A stretch of DNA of 64,000 bases from contig NZ_CP095491.1 in assembly GCF_023028105.1 (NCBI RefSeq), forward strand, positions 3,596,001-3,660,000. The letters are read 5' to 3'. Shown here piece by piece: positions 31,541 to 43,546 of the stretch. Made by a program: the position numbers and the translations under genes. The DNA is from Halosolutus gelatinilyticus (lineage in GTDB: Archaea > Halobacteriota > Halobacteria > Halobacteriales > Natrialbaceae). The stretch's first letter is position 1. Each line of letters starts with the position of its first letter. The notes beneath the pieces were generated by a model. The model was not told where the DNA came from. It did not search any database and saw nothing but the letters and a program-made list of their open reading frames with translations.

Positions 31541-31941
31541 CGTTCTCGATCGGGACCGTCCGCGAGGCGTCCGGCGGCCGGATCGTCGTCCTCCGGGATC
31601 TGAGCCGCATCTATTCCGGCGGAACGGTCGTCGATGCCGGGGTGAATACGGGGACCGAGCGCTGAGAACCGGTCGATGATCGCCGACTCCGATCTGCTGC
31701 CCTTGCGACGAACGGGGTGACGTTTAGGCCGCTCATTCTGGAGGATAGATCACACCGGTCACGTTCACTCCGGACGACGATTCCGTTCGGAATGCAGGGC
31801 AGAGATCGTGCCGGCCGATTCCGACCGGCAAGGCCGTCCGATCGAAGCGTTTCGGGCGATCGTCGACCGATCGAACGCGCGGCGATTTCCCGGCTCGCTG
31901 GGCCTGCGCTGGACGATTCGACCAACTACGAGTTTCGAACG
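31541..31941. other. Intergenic region upstream of the catalase gene
   Basis: A 401-base gap after the XPB gene. Open frames run through it, including an N-terminal extension of the catalase frame, but its codon use and composition (Arg/Ser-rich translation) do not support coding. No clear TATA box was seen directly before ATG 31942, and no RNA gene was recognised. Confidence 0.4.
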
Positions 31942-34200
31942 ATGCCAGAGGACACTCACGACGCGGACGACGGAGAGAATCGACCGGACGCAACCGACGG
32001 CGGTACCGCGGATGACTCGCAGCCGAGTTCCGAATCGAGTCGAACCGGCACCAGCGGCGACGGAGACGACGTCGACGAGAACAGCAAACGGGAGCAACTC
32101 GATACCGTGCGGGAGAGTTCGGAGGAAGAGGCGTTGACGACGGACCACGGGGTCAAGATCGACGATACCGACAACTCCCTGACGGCGGGCGAGCGCGGCC
32201 CGACGATCATGGAGGACTTCCACTTCCGGGAGAAGATGACCCAGTTCGACCACGAGTCGATCCCGGAACGGGTCGTCCACGCCCGGGGGACGGGTGCTCA
32301 CGGCTACTTCCAGCCCTACGAGGACCCCGATCTCGGGGAGTACGACGACGTTTCCGAACTGACGAAGGCCTCGTTCCTGCAGGATCCCGGTCGGAAGACG
32401 CCCGTGTTCACCCGTTTCTCGACGGTCGTCGGCTCGCGCGGCTCGGCCGACACCGTCCGGGACGTCCGCGGCTTCGCGACCAAGTTCTACACCGAGGAGG
32501 GTAACTGGGATCTCGTGGGGAACAACATCCCCGTGTTCTTCATCCAGGACGCGATGGAGTTCCCGGACCTGGTCCACGCGATCAAACCGGAGCCCGACGA
32601 CGGCACCCCCCAGGCCTCCGCGGCCCACGACACGTTCTGGGACTTCGCCTCGCTGAAACCGGAGATCACGCACATGATCATGTGGGTCCTTTCCGGACGC
32701 GCCCTCCCCCGGGCGTATCGGATGATGCAGGGGTTCGGGGTCCACACGTTCCGGCTGGTCAACGACGACGGCGACGCGACGTTCGTCAAGTTCCACTGGA
32801 CGCCGAAGCTCGACACCAGTCAACTCGTCTGGGACGAGACGCAGAAAATCGCCGGCAAGAACCCCGACTTCAACAGGATGGACCTCTACGACGTCATCGA
32901 GGAGGGGTACGAGCCCGAGTGGGAACTCGGCGTCCAGCTCTTCGACGAGGAAGACGCCGCGGAATTCGACTTCGACGTGCTCGATCCGACGAAGATCGTC
33001 CCCGAGACGGAGGTCCCCGTCAGACCGATCGGCAGGATGGTCTTAAACGAGACGCCGGACAACTTCTTTGCGGAGGTCGAGCAGGTCGCGTTCCACCCCG
33101 GAAACGTCGTTCCCGGCATCGACTTCTCGAACGATCCGCTCCTGCAGGGCCGGCTGTTCTCCTACCAGGACACCCAGCTCAACCGTTTCGGGAGCGCCAA
33201 CTGGGACGAGATCCCGATCAACCGGCCGATCGCCGAGCGGCACAACAACCAGCGCGCCGGCTTCATGCGCCAAGAGATCAACCAGGGCAAGGCCTCCTAC
33301 AAGCCCAACTCGATCGGCGACGACGATCCGCGGGAGGTTCCCGAGGAGGAGGGCGGCTACGAACACTACGCCGAGAAGATCTCGGGCGAGAAGATCCGCA
33401 ACCGCAGCGAGAGCTTCCAGAACCACTTCGAGCAGGCGCGGCTGTTCTGGAACAGCATGACCGACGCCGAGGAACAGAACATCGTCGACGCCGCCCACTT
33501 CGAACTCGGAAAGGTCGACCGAATGGAGATCCGCGAGCGGATGGTCTACGACCTGTTCAACAACGTCGACCACGAGTTCGCAAAGCGGGTCGCGGAGGGA
33601 ATCGGCGTCGAACCGCCCGAGGTGCCCGGCGACGAGATGTCGACCCACGACGCCGAGGACCCTGCGCTCAGCATCGAGGGACGCCGCGACGCCGACACGA
33701 TCGAGACGCGGAAGATCGCGATCCTCGTCGACGATGGCTTCGACGGCGACCACCTCGAAACGGTTCGATCGACGCTGCAGGACGAGGGCGCGCGCGTGAA
33801 GGTCGTCTCTAAAGCCCTCGGCGACAAGGAGTCCGAAGCCGGCGACGCGGTCGAGGCTGACAAGAGCCACGTGACGACCGAGTCCGTGCTGTTCGACGCC
33901 GTGTTCGTCCCCGGCGGCGAGGACCACGTCGACGCCCTCCTGGACCAGGGCGACGCAAAACACTTCGTCGCGGAGGCGTTCAAGCACAAGAAGCCGATCG
34001 CCGCGATCGGCGAGGGAACCGAACTGCTCGAGGCGGTAGAACTTCCGGACGTCGAGATCGCCGCCAACGGCGAGACGATCTCGAGCGACGGCGTTGTGAC
34101 GAGTCACGGCGACGATCTCGAGGCGTTCGCGGAGCGGTTCGTCGACGCGATCGCCGAGCACCGCCACTGGGGTCGGAATCCGAAGGACGTCCCCGCCTGA
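31942..34200 (+). CDS. katE: Large-subunit catalase (KatE/HPII type) with C-terminal DJ-1-like domain
   Basis: A 752-residue clade 2 catalase. A disordered acidic N terminus (about residues 1-85) precedes the catalase barrel: active-site His in PERVVHARGTGAHGYF (about residue 111), FTRFSTVVGSRGSADTVRDV, the distal Asn in GNNIPVFFIQDAM, and the heme-ligand Tyr in LFSYQDTQLNRFGSANWDE (about residue 407). From about residue 590 there is a flavodoxin/DJ-1-like domain (KIAILVDDGFDGDHLETVR, FDAVFVPGGEDHVDAL). It decomposes H2O2 in the cytoplasm. It lies between the XPB helicase and DacZ/Bax1 genes, a stress and repair context. Confidence 0.96.
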   Translation: MPEDTHDADDGENRPDATDGGTADDSQPSSESSRTGTSGDGDDVDENSKREQLDTVRESSEEEALTTDHGVKIDDTDNSLTAGERGPTIMEDFHFREKMTQFDHESIPERVVHARGTGAHGYFQPYEDPDLGEYDDVSELTKASFLQDPGRKTPVFTRFSTVVGSRGSADTVRDVRGFATKFYTEEGNWDLVGNNIPVFFIQDAMEFPDLVHAIKPEPDDGTPQASAAHDTFWDFASLKPEITHMIMWVLSGRALPRAYRMMQGFGVHTFRLVNDDGDATFVKFHWTPKLDTSQLVWDETQKIAGKNPDFNRMDLYDVIEEGYEPEWELGVQLFDEEDAAEFDFDVLDPTKIVPETEVPVRPIGRMVLNETPDNFFAEVEQVAFHPGNVVPGIDFSNDPLLQGRLFSYQDTQLNRFGSANWDEIPINRPIAERHNNQRAGFMRQEINQGKASYKPNSIGDDDPREVPEEEGGYEHYAEKISGEKIRNRSESFQNHFEQARLFWNSMTDAEEQNIVDAAHFELGKVDRMEIRERMVYDLFNNVDHEFAKRVAEGIGVEPPEVPGDEMSTHDAEDPALSIEGRRDADTIETRKIAILVDDGFDGDHLETVRSTLQDEGARVKVVSKALGDKESEAGDAVEADKSHVTTESVLFDAVFVPGGEDHVDALLDQGDAKHFVAEAFKHKKPIAAIGEGTELLEAVELPDVEIAANGETISSDGVVTSHGDDLEAFAERFVDAIAEHRHWGRNPKDVPA

Positions 34201-34992: not shown

Positions 34993-36522
34993 ATGCTGAC
35001 GAAGGACCTGCTCCGCGTCTCGCGCGCCGGCGGGGGCTACCACCCCCAGTTCGCCGGGCGCGAACATCGGCCGCTCGCCGCCCGCGTCATCGGCACCTTC
35101 CAGGGCCACGTCGGCGAACCCCGGGCCGATCTGGAGGACGCGCTCACCGATCTGGAGCGCGACGCGGACGACTTCAAACTCGTCCGCGGGTTCGCCGCGC
35201 TGATCGATCGGGAGTCGACGTTCGAAACGGACGCCGCGATCGATCCCGAGCGGGCGCGACGGGCCGCTTTCGAGGCAGGGGAAGCGGTCGGCGTCGTCAC
35301 GGAAGCCGAACGGGGGGCGGCGCTGGATCGAGCGAGCGACTCGGTCGGCTGTACGCCGGCCGCACTCGCCGCGGCGCTGTACGCCGACCTCGACGAACGG
35401 CAGGTGCTCGAATCGGTCGATCCGCGCTGGGACCCCGACGACCTGGTCGCCCAGTACAACCTCTCGCTCGCGCAGACGGCGCTGTTCGACGCGACGGAAA
35501 TCCGGGTCCGGTCGAGCGATCCGAAGGCGCTCGTCTCGGCGATCAAACGCCTGCGCCTGATGTACGAGATCCGGAAACTCGACGAGAGCGAAGTCGCAAG
35601 CGGACCCACGGAGCGCGAGATCGTCGTCACCGGTCCGACGCGACTCTTCCGGGCGACCCGACGGTACGGCACGCGATTCGCCCGACTCCTGCGGACGATC
35701 GCCAAGACCGACGCGTGGACGCTCGAGGCGACGATCGACGATCGGGGTACCGAGCGCAGGCTCGACCTCTCCTCCGAAGATCCGATCCGGGTGCCGGACG
35801 CCGATCCCGTCGCGGACGTGTCGTTCGACAGCAGCGTCGAAGCCGACTTCGCCGGGCGATTTTCGACGCTCGATCTCGACTGGAGCCTCGTCCGGGAGCC
35901 GGAACCGCTCGCGACGGGCACGCGCGTGATGATCCCCGATTTTGCGTTCGAATACAAGCACGGGCATTTTCGGGTGTACTTCGAGATCATGGGGTTCTGG
36001 ACGCCCGAATACGTCGAGAAGAAACTCGGTCAACTCGAGGGGTTGGAGGACGTCGAACTGATCGTCGCCGTCGACGAGTCGCTGGGCGTCGGCGAGGAGA
36101 TCGCCGCGACCGACTTCCGGGCGATCCCGTACTCGGGGACCGTCCGAGTGAAAGACGTCGCCGACGTCCTCCGGGAGTACGAGCGTCAACTCGTCGCCGA
36201 GAGCGCGGCCGGCCTTCCCGACGAACTCCGCCCCGAGGCGGACGTCGTCTCGCTCGAATCGATCGCCGCTCGCCGCGGCGTGAGCGAGGACGCCCTCGCG
36301 GACGTCGCCTTTCCGGCGCACGATCGGGTCGGTCGAACCCTCGTTCGTCCGGCGGTACTCGACGCGCTCGCCGACGAGATCGAGACCGGGATGTCCCTCT
36401 CCGACGCCGAGGACGTACTCGACCGCCACGGCTTCGACGACGCGAGCGCGGTGCTCTCCCGGCTGGGCTACCGCGTCGAGTGGGAAGGCCTCGCCGGGGG
36501 AACGCTCGTCGATCGGGAGTGA
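34993..36522 (+). CDS. bax1: Bax1 / DUF790 nuclease, XPB partner
   Basis: A 509-residue DUF790 protein (Bax1, binds archaeal XPB). It opens MLTKDLLRVSRAGGGYHPQF with the conserved family start. The nuclease core is near residues 310-370: MIPDFAFEYKHGHFRVYFEI and GFWTPEYVEKKLGQLEGLED, with D and E residues of a PD-(D/E)XK-like site. In Sulfolobus and Thermoplasma, Bax1 and XPB form a helicase-nuclease that opens and cuts DNA bubbles in nucleotide excision repair. These genes are usually adjacent, but here katE and dacZ lie between Bax1 and the XPB gene at 30077. Length is normal for the family. Confidence 0.9.
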   Translation: MLTKDLLRVSRAGGGYHPQFAGREHRPLAARVIGTFQGHVGEPRADLEDALTDLERDADDFKLVRGFAALIDRESTFETDAAIDPERARRAAFEAGEAVGVVTEAERGAALDRASDSVGCTPAALAAALYADLDERQVLESVDPRWDPDDLVAQYNLSLAQTALFDATEIRVRSSDPKALVSAIKRLRLMYEIRKLDESEVASGPTEREIVVTGPTRLFRATRRYGTRFARLLRTIAKTDAWTLEATIDDRGTERRLDLSSEDPIRVPDADPVADVSFDSSVEADFAGRFSTLDLDWSLVREPEPLATGTRVMIPDFAFEYKHGHFRVYFEIMGFWTPEYVEKKLGQLEGLEDVELIVAVDESLGVGEEIAATDFRAIPYSGTVRVKDVADVLREYERQLVAESAAGLPDELRPEADVVSLESIAARRGVSEDALADVAFPAHDRVGRTLVRPAVLDALADEIETGMSLSDAEDVLDRHGFDDASAVLSRLGYRVEWEGLAGGTLVDRE

Positions 36523-36603
36523 CGTTCGGCCCGGCGAGAAGTTCGACCCGTGCTCCCCGCCGGCGGCCACAGCGTTATTCGGGGCGGAGGCGTACGATCG
36601 GGT

Positions 36604-37533
36604 ATGCCAGACCCGATCCTCGGCATCCATCACGTCACCGCGATCGCCAGCGATCCCGGCGAGAACCACGCGTTCTACACCGAGACGCTCGGCCTCCGAC
36701 TGGTGAAACGGAGCGTCAACCAGGACGACGTGTCCGTCTACCACCTGTTCTACGCCGATCACGAGGGCTCGCCGGGAACGAGCATGACGTTCTTTCCGTA
36801 CGAGGATGCCCGATTGGGCCGAGTTGGAACCGGACAGGTCAGCACGGTGTCGTTTCTCGTTCCCGAGGGGTCGATCGACTACTGGGCCGACCGGCTCGAC
36901 GAGGCGGGCGCCGACCCCGAGGACCAGTTCGAACGGTTCGGCGACGCCGTCCTCCGGTTCCGGGATCCGGACGGCCTGCCGCTGGAACTGGTCGCCCGAG
37001 CGGACGCCCCGCCAGCGAACCTGCCCGAGAGTCCCGTTCCCCACGCGCACGCGATCCGAGGCTTCTTCGGCGTCGAACTCTCGCTGACGAGCGCCGATCC
37101 GACCGGCGAGCTGTTGGAAACAATGGGATACGAAGAAACCGATCGCGAGGGGACGCGACGACGGTACGAGGCCGCCGGTGACCTCGGGTTCGTCGTCGAT
37201 CTGAAGGTCGATCCACAGGGGCTGCAGGGGATTCCCGGCGCCGGCACCGTCCACCACGTCGCGTTTCGGGTGACGTCGAACGACCAGGCCGAGTGGCGCC
37301 AGCACCTGATCGACCGGGGCCTTCGACCGACGGAGATCATCGATCGCAAGTGGTTCCGATCGGTCTACGCCCGCGAGTACGAGGGCGTCCTCTTCGAGTA
37401 CGCCACCGAGGATCCCGGATACACGGTCGACGAGGATCTCGACGAACTCGGCGAGCGGCTGGTGGTACCGGAGTGGCTCGAGGACCGTCGCGAATCGATC
37501 GAAACCGAATTACCGCCGCTGTCATCCGGGTGA
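36604..37533 (+). CDS. VOC-family ring-cleaving dioxygenase-like protein
   Basis: A 309-residue protein with two vicinal-oxygen-chelate (glyoxalase/dioxygenase) modules: LGIHHVTAIASDPGENHAFY near residue 5, and GAGTVHHVAFRVTSNDQAEW near residue 215. Metal-binding His occur in HHVT and HHVAF, with Glu in GVLFEYATEDPGY. It matches the bacterial and archaeal YkcA/LinE-like ring-cleaving dioxygenase group annotated from hydroquinone dioxygenases. The substrate in haloarchaea is unknown. The start at 36604 (MPDPILGIHHV) fits the family. Confidence 0.88.
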   Translation: MPDPILGIHHVTAIASDPGENHAFYTETLGLRLVKRSVNQDDVSVYHLFYADHEGSPGTSMTFFPYEDARLGRVGTGQVSTVSFLVPEGSIDYWADRLDEAGADPEDQFERFGDAVLRFRDPDGLPLELVARADAPPANLPESPVPHAHAIRGFFGVELSLTSADPTGELLETMGYEETDREGTRRRYEAAGDLGFVVDLKVDPQGLQGIPGAGTVHHVAFRVTSNDQAEWRQHLIDRGLRPTEIIDRKWFRSVYAREYEGVLFEYATEDPGYTVDEDLDELGERLVVPEWLEDRRESIETELPPLSSG

Positions 37534-37710
37534 CCGGTGTCGTTTGATCGTCGATCCGCGGGTTCCGGTCGTCGAACGCGACGATCGAGCGCGCGCGATT
37601 CGAGCCCATCTCGCTGGACCAGTTCGCTCGAACGGCGCTTGACCCCGTGAGACGGCCGAGATCGCCCGCACGCGGTCAGTCCGTTCGAGCGTTCTCCCGG
37701 ACGTCGGTTC

Positions 37711-37742
37711 GCGATACCGATCGGTCGCGATACCGATCGGTC
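37711..37742. repeat. Tandem 16-bp repeat, two exact copies
   Basis: The unit GCGATACCGATCGGTC occurs twice without a gap (37711-37726 and 37727-37742). The unit itself contains the palindrome ACCGATCGGT. It could be a pair of protein-binding sites. Confidence 0.85.
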
Positions 37743-37964
37743 GGTGACAATACGGCGCGACCGCCACCCGCATCTCTCGGCCTATCGCTCGCTTCTCTCT
37801 TGGAGTGTGACTGTCGCCAGATCCGTCCATCAGGTCGCGGCACGTCTCGTCGCGGTCACGGTCGGATTGTTTGCTCGAAACGTGACGATTTCCGACGCTG
37901 TGACGCCCGCCGGTCGCAACTGGTAGGGTCACCGACTCGACCGGTGTAACGAAGGCGGCCCTCG

Positions 37965-37980
37965 GCGATCGATCGATCGC
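37965..37980. repeat. Perfect 16-bp palindrome
   Basis: GCGATCGATCGATCGC reads the same on both strands and lies inside the long non-coding region. GATCG words are very common in this genome, so it could be chance amplification of that word or an operator. Confidence 0.85.
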
Positions 37981-38002
37981 GCCCACTGCCGATTACTCCC
38001 GC

Positions 38003-38017
38003 GAAAAGCTGCTTTTC
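38003..38017. repeat. Inverted repeat in the non-coding region
   Basis: GAAAAGC, one central T, then GCTTTTC: a perfect 7-base inverted repeat. The loop is too short to be a good terminator, so a dimeric binding site is more likely. Function unknown. Confidence 0.6.
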
Positions 38018-38385
38018 TCGTGACAAGAGCGACGGAGCAGTCGCCACAGGGTGCCAACGTATCGGACGAGACGCGTCGGTACGCAGCGAACGCGCTTCCG
38101 ATTGCACGGTTCAATTCGCCGTTTTTCGGGCCTGAACGGTGCTGATGTCATTCCGCTCCCGACAGTTTCGGAGTAACCGAATACGAATTGATCATTTCAC
38201 GGGTGGAGCTGTCAGTATCGGAAACTCGCGAGAACGACAAATTGCTTACGCGTAATCCACACCAAAACCGATCACTTGCTAATACTCCCAGCCGGAACAA
38301 ATTAACCGATACGAGATGAAACGGTCGGGGGCGTTTATTCAAGAATCCGATCAAGGTTGCGTCGTCCCGTTAGGGGCGTGAGAGA

Positions 38386-38958
38386 ATGAGCGAACAGGAA
38401 CATACAGGCGAATCGAGACGGTCGTTTATGGCGAAGAGTGCCCTTACGACCGGCGCGCTCACGCTAGGTACGGCGAGTATCGGCGCGGGCGTGGCGGGCG
38501 CACAGGATGAAAGCAGCGAAGCAGCGTTCTTCGCGGACAACTACTATCCCGGCGCGAATTTCGACGTTGTCGCTCAGCTCGAAGCGAGCACGACGGTCAA
38601 CACACTACAGATCGACGGAGAAACCGTCGACGAGATTTCGCAGCCCGACGAGTGGAACGGGTACATCATCCGGTACGACATCGGAGCCCAGTCGGGAATC
38701 ACGACGTTCATGTTCGTCCGCAGTGCGACGCTGAGCGAGGGCGACAGCGGAACGGCCGGCGAAGACGCGTCGGTGTTGAGTTCCGAACTGAACCTCCTCA
38801 CTACGTCACTGAACGGTGGCGGAGGCGGAGACGACAACGGAGACACGAACGGTGATGAGGAAATAACCGACGATGAGGACAACGGCGACCTCAACGAGAG
38901 CAACGGCGACCTCAACGAGAGCAATGGCAACCTCAACGAAAGCGAGGGTGATCAATAA
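38386..38958 (+). CDS. Tat-exported protein, tandem paralogue 1
   Basis: A 190-residue secreted protein. A twin-arginine signal is at residues 10-40 (SRRSFMAKSALTTGALTLG, cleavage likely after GVAGAQ). The mature domain of about 95 residues has FDVVAQLEASTTV, EISQPDEWNGYIIRYD and DSGTAGEDASVLSSELNLL. The same pattern recurs in the next two genes. A Gly/Asp-rich linker follows, with three 7-residue NGDLNES repeats at the end. No known family was recognised; the domain is predicted all-beta. It is the first gene of a three-gene tandem array and its stop overlaps the next start by one base. Confidence 0.8.
   Translation: MSEQEHTGESRRSFMAKSALTTGALTLGTASIGAGVAGAQDESSEAAFFADNYYPGANFDVVAQLEASTTVNTLQIDGETVDEISQPDEWNGYIIRYDIGAQSGITTFMFVRSATLSEGDSGTAGEDASVLSSELNLLTTSLNGGGGGDDNGDTNGDEEITDDEDNGDLNESNGDLNESNGNLNESEGDQ
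38881..38943 (+). repeat. Three 21-bp tandem repeats inside the coding sequence
   Basis: Three in-frame 21-base units at 38881-38901, 38902-38922 and 38923-38943 encode NGDLNES, NGDLNES and NGNLNES. The first two are identical in DNA; the third differs at a few bases. They form an acidic, Asn-rich C-terminal tail on paralogue 1. Slippage of such units could alter tail length between strains. Confidence 0.85.
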
Positions 38959-39290
38959 TGGTCCAAGATGATGATGATGATGCCCGAGTGCTCGTGTTCG
39001 CGTACGACTACGAGGCCGGAGCGGAGTTCAATGTCGTTTCGCAGCTCGAAACGAGCACGACGGTGAGCATTCTCCAGACCACCGAGGGGGAGAACGTTCC
39101 GGAGATCTCCCAACCCGACGAATACACCGGGCACGTCATCCGGTACAACGGCGACGACCCACCGTTGGCCCCGACGACGCTCCTGTTCACCCAGGACAGT
39201 GGCTTGGGCGAGGACGACAGCGGAACGCTCAGCGACGACGCGTCGATGTTCAGCACGACGCTGAATCTCCTCGAGACGTCGCTGGAATAG
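38958..39290 (+). CDS. Tandem paralogue 2, no signal peptide
   Basis: A 110-residue protein consisting almost only of the domain seen in paralogue 1: FNVVSQLETSTTV, EISQPDEYTGHVIRYN, and DSGTLSDDASMFSTTLNLLE. It starts MVQDDDDDARVLVFAYD and has no export signal. Its ATG shares one base with the stop of paralogue 1 (TAATG), so it is translationally coupled. Alternatively, paralogues 1 and 2 were once one two-domain secreted protein split by a frameshift: a -1 shift near 38955 would fuse them. If it is not exported, its place of action differs from paralogue 1. A T-rich stretch at 39309-39317 may end the transcript. Confidence 0.78.
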   Translation: MVQDDDDDARVLVFAYDYEAGAEFNVVSQLETSTTVSILQTTEGENVPEISQPDEYTGHVIRYNGDDPPLAPTTLLFTQDSGLGEDDSGTLSDDASMFSTTLNLLETSLE

Positions 39291-39444
39291 TCGGAGTCGC
39301 AGTATATTCTTGTTTTTACTCGACCGCTTTTCGTCGCCCGGCCGAGTTCGGTTCGGACACCGTGAGGGACCGATGAACGCGTTAAAGAGCAACTACTCCG
39401 TGTTCTCTGTCCATACGGGCGTCAACCAACGAGGGCAAATGTGA

Positions 39445-40059
39445 ATGAACCAACGGAACCCGATACCCGATCGAAACGCGAACAGGGAGGACGAATCGCA
39501 ACCGTCTACGGATGGGACCCCGAACGGGGCGATGAAACGGGGGGTGATAGCCGCCGGCGCGCTCGCCGCCGGTGCGTCCGCGCTGGATACCGGGACCTCC
39601 GAACCGTCCGAGGGATCGTCGTCCGCCGACTCGACGGACTCGGCGATCGCGGCACCCGTCGATCGACAGTCCGATCCGCTCGTTCTCGTGCCGTTACCGG
39701 ATTTCAACCCGGGGCTGTCGGTCCGCGTCGTCGATCGCCTTCCCGCGCCGACGACGGTTCAACTCCTCCGGTTGCCGAACGACGAGACGGTTTCCGTTTT
39801 GACGCAACCCGACGAGTACACGGGATACGTCGTCCGCTCCGAGCCCGAGGACGAGCGCGTTCACTCGACGACGTTCGTGTTCACCCGCGGGACGCTGGAA
39901 ACTGGCGGGAGGTATCGGTTCGGAACCGATGCGAAAGTGTTCAGCATGCAGTTGAACCTGTTCCGGGCGACCGCTCGACGCGTCGATTCGGACGACGGCG
40001 CGAACGGTGACGGCGGCAACTCCACGTCCGAAGAGACGAACGATTCTGGAGGAGCGTAA
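39445..40059 (+). CDS. Tandem paralogue 3 with N-terminal hydrophobic segment
   Basis: A 204-residue protein. A polar N terminus is followed by a hydrophobic segment, MKRGVIAAGALAAGASALD (about residues 30-48), which may be a non-canonical signal or anchor with KR rather than RR. After a Ser/Asp linker comes the third copy of the domain, the most diverged: VRVVDRLPAPTTVQLLRLPN, TQPDEYTGYVVRSE, TTFVFTRGTLETG and DAKVFSMQLNLFRAT. The acidic C-terminal tail is Gly/Asn-rich. It is separated by 154 bases from paralogue 2, so it may have its own promoter. Function unknown. Confidence 0.75.
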   Translation: MNQRNPIPDRNANREDESQPSTDGTPNGAMKRGVIAAGALAAGASALDTGTSEPSEGSSSADSTDSAIAAPVDRQSDPLVLVPLPDFNPGLSVRVVDRLPAPTTVQLLRLPNDETVSVLTQPDEYTGYVVRSEPEDERVHSTTFVFTRGTLETGGRYRFGTDAKVFSMQLNLFRATARRVDSDDGANGDGGNSTSEETNDSGGA

Positions 40060-40207
40060 CTGCGACTCTCGCCGGCGTTCCTCCGGTGTTCCGCCGACGC
40101 TTCCGATCGGCGTTCCGTTCTCAACTGGCGACGGTCACCGCGTCCCGGCTTCGTGACGGCGTATTCGATCGACTGAGCCGCACGCGCTACGCGGATGCTC
40201 GATCGAC

Positions 40208-41134
40208 TCAGTCGCCGGCGTTTTTCACCGCCCACGGGCGAAGGATCGAGTAGACCGTCCGCGTCCGGGGCGCGTCGACGCCGTGCTCGTCGGCCTTCCG
40301 GACCACCGTTCCCTGGAGCGCGTCGACCTCCATTCGCTTGCCGTTGGTCATGTCGTAGTGGAGCGACGAGTACGTGTCGCGATCGAGGTCGCGCGCGAAC
40401 GCGATCCAGTTGTCGATAACCTCGTCAGCGACGTGTACTCCCTCGGCGGCCGCCACCTCCTGTACTTCCTCGAGAATGCCGACGAAAAGCTCCCACGACT
40501 CGTCGACCTCGCGGATGTTGCCGATCGGGAGGCGGATCGCCGCCGTCACGCTCGACACCGCGGCGATCAGCGCGTACTTGTTCCAGAGGTCGGTCCAGAT
40601 GTCCGCCGAGAGGACGCCCTCCATCCCGTCGGCCCGCTCGCAACGGTCGTGGAAACGCTCGATGCGATCGCTCCGTTCGCCGTCGAGTTCGCCGTAGACG
40701 ATCCGCGCCGGCCCGTCGGTGTGTTCGATCGTGCCGGGCTCGCCGATCGTCGAGAAGATGTAGGTGACGCCGCCCAGGACGTGTTCGCGGCCGATCTCGT
40801 CGGCGAGTTTTTCCTCGTTGTCGACTCCGTTTTGGAGCGAGATCACGGCCGTCTCTTTTCCAAGCAGCGGCTCCATCCTGCGGGCTGCGGAGGCGGTGTC
40901 GAATGACTTCACGCAGAACAGGACGACGTCGCACTCGCCGACCTCGGCGGGGTCGTCCGTCGCCGGGAGGTCGACCTCGAAATCGCCGTGAATGCTCTCG
41001 ACCTTCAGTCCGTCCTCCCGGAGCGCGTCGAGGTGGGGTCCTCGCGCGATCAGGTGTACGTCGGCGCCGGCATTCGCCAATCGACCGCCGAAGTACGCGC
41101 CGACGCCGCCCGCGCCGTAGACTACGATTTTCAT
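40208..41134 (-). CDS. panE: Ketopantoate reductase (2-dehydropantoate 2-reductase)
   Basis: A 308-residue protein of the PanE/ApbA family. The N-terminal NADPH motif is VVYGAGGVGAYFGGRLANAG. Next come CDVVLFCVKSFDTASAAR, SLQNGVDNEEKLADE and the catalytic Lys in DLWNKYALIAAVS (about residue 185), then the C-terminal helical domain with DYDMTNGKRMEVDALQG-like sequence (HYDMTNGKRMEVDALQGTVV). It reduces ketopantoate to pantoate for coenzyme A. Archaeal forms are NADH- or NADPH-dependent and feedback-regulated by CoA. ATG 41134 begins MKIVVYGAGG. A hairpin lies 7 bases upstream. Confidence 0.94.
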   Translation of the reverse strand: MKIVVYGAGGVGAYFGGRLANAGADVHLIARGPHLDALREDGLKVESIHGDFEVDLPATDDPAEVGECDVVLFCVKSFDTASAARRMEPLLGKETAVISLQNGVDNEEKLADEIGREHVLGGVTYIFSTIGEPGTIEHTDGPARIVYGELDGERSDRIERFHDRCERADGMEGVLSADIWTDLWNKYALIAAVSSVTAAIRLPIGNIREVDESWELFVGILEEVQEVAAAEGVHVADEVIDNWIAFARDLDRDTYSSLHYDMTNGKRMEVDALQGTVVRKADEHGVDAPRTRTVYSILRPWAVKNAGD

Positions 41135-41141
41135 GCAAGAG

Positions 41142-41159
41142 AGTGGGCGCAAGCCCACT
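41142..41159 (-). promoter_or_regulatory. GC hairpin in the panE leader
   Basis: On the minus strand AGTGGGC-TTGC-GCCCACT forms a perfect 7-bp stem with a 4-base loop, ending 7 bases before the panE ATG. If transcribed it would fold in the leader and hinder ribosome access. It could instead be a terminator of the upstream methyltransferase operon or the end of a mobile element remnant. No T-run follows it. Confidence 0.6.
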
Positions 41160-41211
41160 TCAGTGTGCTGGCGCCGAATCCGATCGGTCCGGGACCCCGC
41201 TTCTAGAGTCG

Positions 41212-41775
41212 CTACAGGTCCCGCTGGCGCCCCTTTGGGACCACCGATCGCAGTTCGCCGTGCAGGTAGAGGCCGACGCCGAGCGGTTCCAGCCCGCCGC
41301 CCACGACGTGGCTGGCGATCAGATACCCCCAGTCGCCGTCCCACTCCAATTCCTGATCCTTGCCGGCGGCGAACCGCGCCGCGGCCTCGCGATCGAGGTC
41401 TATCACGCACTCCGTGGCGTGGCGGCCGAAGCGCTGGACGAAGTCCGTCGTCGGCTTCCAGTGTTCTTGGCGCGTTCGGAGGCAGGTCATCCCGATCGCC
41501 TCGATCTCCAGCGGCGTCGGGGCGTCCCCGGCGTAGATCCAGATCTTGCCGGCGCCTTTCTCCCAGAAGGTGTGCCCGTCGAAGGTCTCGGGTGGAATGC
41601 CGAACCGATCGGCGAAGTAGTCGACGACCTCCGCGCGGCTGACGCGCCCCTCGACCGTTCGCTCCGAGGGGGTCTCGGGGAGACGATCGAACCGCTGGCC
41701 GTCGTTCTGCTCGAGGTCGCGGCCCTCCTCGCCCGTCGCATCCGCGCCGCCGATCGCGTCCTCGCCGTCGGCCAT
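41212..41775 (-). CDS. PUA-like partner protein of the NOP2/Sun methyltransferase
   Basis: A 187-residue protein resembling the C-terminal PUA-like domain of NOL1/RsmF-type RNA methyltransferases: VVDYFADRFGIPPETFDGHT, then FWEKGAGKIWIYAGD in the middle, and LEPLGVGLYLHGELRSVVPK near the end. It probably helps bind RNA for the methyltransferase encoded immediately upstream, whose stop overlaps this start by one base (TGATG). In other lineages the two domains are fused, so this is a split version. The first 40 residues are acidic and disordered. Confidence 0.82.
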   Translation of the reverse strand: MADGEDAIGGADATGEEGRDLEQNDGQRFDRLPETPSERTVEGRVSRAEVVDYFADRFGIPPETFDGHTFWEKGAGKIWIYAGDAPTPLEIEAIGMTCLRTRQEHWKPTTDFVQRFGRHATECVIDLDREAAARFAAGKDQELEWDGDWGYLIASHVVGGGLEPLGVGLYLHGELRSVVPKGRQRDL

Positions 41776-42683
41776 CAGGCGGTCACCTCCAGCTTCGCGA
41801 CGAAGAACCCGCCCGTATCGTTGTGGTGGGGGTAGATCCGGGCCGCCCTGGTGAGGCTCTCGTCGTACTCGTCGCCGTTCCACTCGGTGAGGCCGGGCGC
41901 GTACTCGAGGTCGAGATCGAAGTCGACGACGCGGCAATCCTCCTCGTCGAGCGCGTGCTGGACGACCGCCTCGTTCTCCTCGGGCGCGAACGTGCAGGTC
42001 GAGTAGACCACCGTGCCGCCCTCGCGGGTCGTCTGGATCGCCCGCCGGAGAATGCCCTTCTGAATTCCCGACACCGACGAGATGTGCCCCTCGGACCAGT
42101 CGTCGAGCGCGTCCGGGTTCTTCCGGATCGTCCCCTCACACGAACAGGGCGCGTCGACGAGGGCTCGATCGAACGCGTCGAAGTCGAACCGGGAGAGCGA
42201 GTAGTTTCGCGCGTCCTCGTTCGTCACCGCGACGCTCGTCGCGCCGAGACGCTCGGCGTTGAACCGCAGCGCCGAGATGCGCCCGAGGTTGCTGTCGTTG
42301 GCGACGACGGTTCCCCGATCGTCCATCAGCGCCGCGAGCTGGGTTGCCTTCCCGCCCGGGGCGGCGCAGCAGTCCCAGACGCGCTCGCCGGGTTGCGGGT
42401 CGAGGACGACCGGCGGGACGGCGGAGACCTCCTCCTGACCGTGGGTGAAGCCGTGGAACGAGGCCCGCGTCGATCCCGGCGAATCGGTGTCGAGGCGCAG
42501 CACGTGCGGATTCCAGTCGACCCGCTCGTAGCCGACGCCGTCCTCCTCGAGCGCGGCGAGCGTCCGATCGACGGAGGCCTTGATCGTGTTCACGCGAACG
42601 GCGGTGCCAAGCGCCCGCTCGCAGGCCGCGAGAAACGCCTCGAAATCGTCGACGACGGGTCGGTACCGCTCGAGTGGCTCCAT
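41775..42683 (-). CDS. RsmB/NOP2-Sun family RNA m5C methyltransferase
   Basis: A 302-residue SAM-dependent RNA methyltransferase. Motif I is VWDCCAAPGGKATQLAALMD, motif IV is the first catalytic-type Cys in LVDAPCSCEGTIRKNP, and motif VI carries the second Cys in VVYSTCTFAPEENEAV. It makes 5-methylcytosine in tRNA or rRNA. The N-terminal RNA-binding region is about 90 residues; the PUA-like part is in the separate overlapping downstream gene. ATG 42683 gives MEPLERYRPVVDDFEAF. Confidence 0.92.
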   Translation of the reverse strand: MEPLERYRPVVDDFEAFLAACERALGTAVRVNTIKASVDRTLAALEEDGVGYERVDWNPHVLRLDTDSPGSTRASFHGFTHGQEEVSAVPPVVLDPQPGERVWDCCAAPGGKATQLAALMDDRGTVVANDSNLGRISALRFNAERLGATSVAVTNEDARNYSLSRFDFDAFDRALVDAPCSCEGTIRKNPDALDDWSEGHISSVSGIQKGILRRAIQTTREGGTVVYSTCTFAPEENEAVVQHALDEEDCRVVDFDLDLEYAPGLTEWNGDEYDESLTRAARIYPHHNDTGGFFVAKLEVTA

Positions 42684-42805
42684 TACTCGCGAGTTCGAAC
42701 GGCCGGCGCTTGTGGGTTTCGAAGCGGGGACGGCTCCTGATCCGATCGATCGCTCCGGACGCCGTCGCCTGTGTTTTTATCACGCTGCCTCGCGACCGTC
42801 TCGAT

Positions 42806-43546
42806 ATGGCAGGTATCCAGCGACGGGGTCCCGAGGCGGACCTCGACGACCCGATCCTCGTCGAGGGCTTCCCGGGGCTCGGACTCGTCGGCAAGCTCGC
42901 GACCGACCACCTCGTGAACGAACTCGAGATGCGCCACTACGCCAGCGTCGACTGTGACGGGCTTCCAAAGGTCGGCGTCTACCGCGGCGGCGACCGGACC
43001 GTTCGCCCGCCCGTGCGGATCTACGTCAGCGAAGACGACGACTTGCTCGCGCTCCAGAGCGATACGCCGATCAGTTCGCAGGCGGTCGAGACGGTGGCGA
43101 ACTGCGTTACGGGTTGGATCGTCTCTCGGCAGGTGACGCCGGTCTACCTCAGTGGCCTCCCCGCCGAACGGGACGACCGGCCCGACGTCTACGGCGTCGC
43201 AACCGGGAACGCGGGCGAGGCTCTCGAGCGCCACGACATCCCCGCCCCGCCGGAAGACGGCGTCGTCACCGGGCCGACCGGCGCGCTCATCAACCGGGCC
43301 GCACAGGACGGACACGACAGTTTCGGGCTGGTCGTCCAATCGAACCCGCAGTTTCCCGACCCCGAGGCCGCGAGCGTCCTGCTCGAGGACGGCATCGCGC
43401 CGATCGCCGACCTCTCGGTCGACGTTCGGGACCTGCTCGATCGGGCCGAAGAGATCAAGGAGAAGCGCGAGCAGTTCGCCCAGCAGATGCAACAGGTCGG
43501 TCAGGACGAGAGTTCTCAGGCGCAGCCGCTGCGGATGTACCAGTAG
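42806..43546 (+). CDS. PAC2 family protein (proteasome-assembly-chaperone-like)
   Basis: A 246-residue archaeal PAC2/PbaB-like protein. The opening is DPILVEGFPGLGLVGKLATD, followed by HYASVDCDGLPKVGVYRGG, TPVYLSGLPAE and VVTGPTGALINRAAQ. The C terminus is a charged helix with a Gln-rich end (QFAQQMQQVGQ). Archaeal PbaA/PbaB proteins are related to eukaryotic PAC proteasome chaperones, but direct action on the proteasome is not proven for every member. ATG 42806 is directly before the conserved strand. It is divergent from the methyltransferase. Confidence 0.88.
   Translation: MAGIQRRGPEADLDDPILVEGFPGLGLVGKLATDHLVNELEMRHYASVDCDGLPKVGVYRGGDRTVRPPVRIYVSEDDDLLALQSDTPISSQAVETVANCVTGWIVSRQVTPVYLSGLPAERDDRPDVYGVATGNAGEALERHDIPAPPEDGVVTGPTGALINRAAQDGHDSFGLVVQSNPQFPDPEAASVLLEDGIAPIADLSVDVRDLLDRAEEIKEKREQFAQQMQQVGQDESSQAQPLRMYQ

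Follow-up and report, generated by a model that had tools for sequence, protein, structure and literature searches.

A haloarchaeal family of small tandem paralogues as candidate subunits of a Tat-exported heteromer

Introduction

The closest described systems are the hitchhikers of the twin-arginine (Tat) pathway. Export of folded partners with the signal supplied by one subunit is established for bacterial hydrogenases and formate dehydrogenases, and in Tat heterodimers the signal lies on one subunit and a C-terminal tail sometimes on the other (PMC10924467). The hitchhikers named there, Ni-Fe hydrogenases and formate dehydrogenases, are cofactor-loaded enzymes (PMC10924467). In this study, a 64,000-nucleotide stretch of the Halosolutus gelatinilyticus genome (the window) was analysed, in which three tandem genes, A, B and C, encode small paralogous proteins. 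The locus resembles the hitchhikers in that one subunit bears a twin-arginine signal, the signal-less partner is encoded alongside (B overlaps A by TAATG), and a tail is found on one subunit, sometimes the other one. However, the subunits at this locus are paralogues that all derive from a single small domain, for which no cofactor is predicted, and both their complex and its export are putative.

Results

The three genes and the elements ahead of them are as follows.

38318-38338, plus strand: conserved promoter box AACRRTCG-N6-YTTAT (here GAAACGGTCG GGGGCG TTTAT), TATA-like at 38334, present upstream of Tat-carrying members in two families
38363-38378, plus strand: short leader hairpin CGTCCC-GTTA-GGGGCG just 5' of the A start codon (p=0.025)
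38386-38958, plus strand: gene A; Tat signal 38386-38505, domain about 38521-38814, acidic/Gly/Asn tail about 38815-38955
38956-38960, plus strand: TAATG, overlap of the A stop and B start, putative translational coupling of A and B
38958-39290, plus strand: gene B; domain alone, with neither signal nor C-terminal tail
39445-40059, plus strand: gene C; degenerate signal KRGVIAAGALAAGASALD at about 39532-39588, domain about 39676-39969, Asp/Gly/Asn tail

The open reading frames at 38386, 38958 and 39445 agree with the three consecutive plus-strand genes of the initial annotation, and so do their N-termini: a Tat signal on A (RRSFMAKSAL...AGAQ), none on B, and a KR-type hydrophobic lead on C. 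The Tat models TIGR02811 and TIGR01409 matched A weakly, below their cut-offs. The N-terminus of B (MVQDDDD...) lies approximately where a mature protein would begin. Acidic or Gly/Asn-rich ends had been ascribed to all three proteins, and this is right for the tails of A and C but not for B, which ends about 3 residues past the domain (LETSLE) and has an acidic stretch at its N-terminus only. The neighbouring genes (window 31717-34200 and 34993-43546) encode a large catalase, a DUF790 protein, a glyoxalase-like protein, a ketopantoate reductase, a DUF7122 protein, an RsmB/F methyltransferase and a PAC2 protein, and nothing in these intervals pointed to a surface or secretion system.

The domain common to A, B and C spans about 95 residues. 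A whole-genome search with B returned, besides B, no proteins other than A (51%, E=8.2e-24) and C (37%, E=4.3e-13), and the alignment of the three contains 27 invariant columns, including QPDE, G, R, TT..F and DA...S..LNL. The single shared domain proposed by the initial annotation thus rests on homology far above chance, and neither outcome that it had named as refuting, a non-significant alignment or a match to a characterised family, was obtained. The family is undescribed, as the annotation had supposed, because no significant match to a characterised family was found in Pfam, NCBIfam, PHROGs, PADLOC, PDB sequences or PDB folds. A PHROG match at E=0.004 was seen; a viral origin was rejected, relatives being absent from the viral contigs and phages searched. 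Several members weakly matched bacterial SH3-like domains (PF08239 SH3_3, PF18348 SH3_16 and TIGR04211; best E 0.0012), whose fold is small and beta-rich like that predicted for the family. However, every family score fell under the curated cut-offs, the fold search gave no significant SH3 structure, and the family model has a helix after the second strand. Some family members are named in the PLSDB annotation 'calcium-binding protein' (e.g., WP_235217989 and WP_246975992), a name for which no support was found here: no calcium-binding domain or motif model matched the three proteins or 36 aligned members.

AlphaFold2 models were obtained for B (pLDDT 77, pTM 0.65) and for a Haladaptatus member (pLDDT 85, pTM 0.77), the latter with six strands and one helix. 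Structure prediction followed by fold comparison, which had been suggested from the outset, gave no significant PDB fold: Foldseek with both models returned nothing at E<=0.001, and the search with the first, weaker model (B) was uninformative. Small beta barrels, namely the Pf3 ssDNA-binding protein (1pfs) and EutN/CcmL proteins (2hd3 and 5v74), were loosely similar (TM <=0.52 on the target), but every match had E >0.3 and a probability of at most 0.63 and was not significant. The models suggest that the domain is possibly a small beta barrel.

Relatives were found in 76 of 392 genomes of the order Halobacteriales, nearly all from two families: Natrialbaceae, which includes the window's genome, Natrinema, Halovivax and Haloterrigena, and the family that holds Haladaptatus. 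A sister genus of Haladaptatus also carries them. No convincing relative was detected among the genomes sampled outside the order. A (7 rows), B (7) and C (9) each formed a supported clade of its own in a 77-row tree, every genome contributing one member to a clade; in a 159-row tree, the clades had 16, 16 and 15 rows, and some genomes held two clusters. These clades span about 15 other Natrialbaceae genomes. Since A, B and C fall into separate well-supported clades common to other genera, the triplication is older than the split of those genera, and the trio appears to be an old set inherited as a unit, contrary to the local gene expansion that had initially been proposed. At L037 and L042/L043, A and B cluster by genome and not by type, as gene conversion between neighbours or separate duplications would give.

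The trio is patchily distributed, because nothing corresponding to the window flanks (28-50 kb) was found next to the other clusters compared and two sampled relatives in the same genus hold a different cluster type. A function inferred from neighbouring genes was rejected, as these flanks are unshared and plasmid neighbours vary between records.

To follow the signals across the family, each copy in 84 usable regions was scored for the motif RR-x-[FVLI] ahead of an uncharged stretch. The 53 tandem clusters comprise 128 genes and 61 canonical Tat signals; at least one canonical Tat paralogue was present in 53 of 53 clusters and exactly one in 47, the classes resting on a regular expression, not a trained predictor, and on inferred start codons. 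Two or three canonical signals occurred in the remaining six (L038, L040, L045, L051, L074 and L141). When signals were shuffled among the same genes, a mean of 41.3 clusters had a signal and all 53 never did in 20,000 shuffles, a comparison that overstates significance since the clusters are related by descent. Among solitary copies, 30 of 34 were canonical; of the exceptions, L140 has broken copies beside it, L171 a frameshifted partner and L174 an adjacent divergent pair, and L056 is a true exception. Moreover, the pattern does not reflect one inherited event, because the signal state needs 19 changes on the 159-row tree, at least 10 of them forced by supported branches. None of the 15 rows of the C clade has a Tat motif that this regular expression classes as canonical.

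The partners of the Tat-carrying copy have either a degraded signal or a start at the mature N-terminus. Many partners, such as those at L042 (partner 'MALQEDGNVLAF' versus carrier 'VAAQEDGNALVF') and L173 (partner 'MMQENAQQPNTGLVF' versus carrier 'GAQENAQEPNTGLVF'), begin at the position where cleavage of the carrier would occur, and partner N-termini are often similar to the mature N-terminus of the carrier. In many other partners, only the arginines are lost and the hydrophobic stretch and an AxA-like site are kept; the degenerate leader of L045, 'ARLTKGALAATGLGLGATATAGSAAAQ', keeps its n-, h- and c-regions. The carrier bears the acidic or Gly/Asn tail in most clusters from Natrialbaceae, and in one sister genus of Haladaptatus a Thr-rich tail (24-48% Thr, 43-121 aa) sits on the signal-less partner. 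Such Thr-rich tails resemble those known from secreted proteins of haloarchaea. In most triads, the ATG of B lies at -1 or +2 nt relative to the stop of A.

In many Tat-carrying copies, the promoter box is followed by a leader with a CCCC/GGGG hairpin, often with GAGAG ahead of the ATG. The strict box pattern occurs once in this genome, and 0.02 occurrences are expected by chance in the window. The promoter-plus-leader model gave its sole confident match in this genome upstream of the trio (E=2.2e-14; next 0.26) and no match below E=0.02 in the family-less genomes searched. As an RNA structure, the leader hairpin is weakly supported: it reached p<0.05 in 18 of 66 dereplicated leaders, and nothing in Rfam came near its gathering score for the leader. 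A strongly covarying RNA was not borne out, RNAalifold keeping only 3 consensus pairs with little covariation. Structured leaders have been described as not typical of haloarchaea, and 72% of protein-coding transcripts are leaderless in Haloferax volcanii (PMC4983044).

The idea that this promoter and leader are private to the family holds in the Natrialbaceae tested and fails in Haladaptatus. There, a similar box and leader stand ahead of non-family genes (L198:1501-1581, L205:1501-1581 and L215:1501-1565), which encode a Gln-rich protein that has a Cys-rich domain and a protein judged SnoaL-like by inspection.

Discussion

The trio may represent three paralogous subunits that are expressed and inherited together, each formed around a version of the same small beta-rich domain. 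A would be exported folded by its twin-arginine signal, and B, and probably C, would have lost functional signals and most likely leave the cell bound to A in a folded heteromer, in the manner of hitchhikers. Outside the cell, the complex would be held at the surface or shed from it, one of its subunits bearing a flexible tail that is acidic, Gly/Asn-rich or Thr-rich. We consider the chances that the untagged partners hitchhike on the tagged one to be evenly balanced; co-expression, complex formation, hitchhiking and the extracellular fate of B and C are the parts that we infer from sequence. The initial annotation had proposed a secreted or surface module, which for A is supported by the Tat signal and for B and C is an inference.

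The hitchhiker reading is favoured because every tandem cluster retains at least one canonical Tat copy while its partners have repeatedly lost theirs, and because solitary copies nearly always keep the signal, three of the four exceptions adjoining a broken, frameshifted or divergent copy. It is further favoured because many partners start where the carrier would be cleaved, because signal-less partners in one genus bear Thr-rich tails, because the start of B is so close to the stop of A in most triads, and because A, B and C each form a separate supported clade. Counting against it, C frequently keeps a degenerate leader that could remain functional for Sec or Tat, six clusters have two or three canonical signals, and the argument from tails draws on what is generally known of secreted haloarchaeal proteins.

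Alternatively, A may be secreted and B and C remain cytosolic, where they would bind the same ligand or hold A inside as a chaperone before Tat export. B has neither signal nor tail, the tail of A could be the extracellular feature, and the overlapping start of A and B would suit a dedicated chaperone. However, long Thr-rich tails typical of exported proteins are found on signal-less partners in several genomes, and many other partners have lost the arginines only, with the hydrophobic stretch and AxA-like site remaining. Moreover, B is a paralogue of its supposed cargo, which to our knowledge no Tat chaperone is. We regard such a dual localisation as unlikely. The leaders that keep n-, h- and c-regions, as at L045, would be consistent with relaxed selection on the arginine pair after duplication, by which copies whose leaders are degenerate go through Sec rather than Tat and truly signal-less ones such as B stay inside; yet this leaves unexplained both the many copies starting at the mature N-terminus and the retention of at least one canonical copy in every cluster, and it appears improbable. 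That B and C are formerly secreted paralogues heading for loss without a joint function is very improbable, for although broken copies exist (a truncated match only for the C gene of G018; L140, L169 and L171), B and C occur as intact orthologues in many genomes and have a conserved domain core.

If the hitchhiker reading holds, a small paralogous family with repeated signal loss, in every case next to a tagged sister, would provide a clean and testable system for folded co-export in archaea, and signal-peptide surveys would undercount secreted haloarchaeal proteins. In broader terms, and tentatively, at somewhat less than an even chance, this undescribed haloarchaeal family may have repeatedly evolved a split of labour in which a tagged and often tailed paralogue co-exports signal-less sisters in preassembled heteromers, expression being driven from a characteristic promoter with a hairpin leader. 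The present study also offers a first description of the domain, whose current label 'calcium-binding protein' has no visible support. A paper on antagonism precursors (PMC12893001) was considered and set aside; it concerns HFX_0892, and nothing ties HFX_0892 to the trio family.

Several further features were observed around the clusters. Next to the triad, several genomes (L034:9515-11425, L059:5099-7024, L061:5036-6961 and L037) encode, in divergent orientation, a protein of about 640 aa with a Tat-like leader. This protein had no Pfam match and was dropped as a functional neighbour of the trio, since the window's genome gave no match to it. Broken or frameshifted family copies (L038:7890-8417, L171:1568-2143, L140 and L169) represent either real decay or assembly error. 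In G028, L042 and L043 are two near-identical clusters on different contigs.
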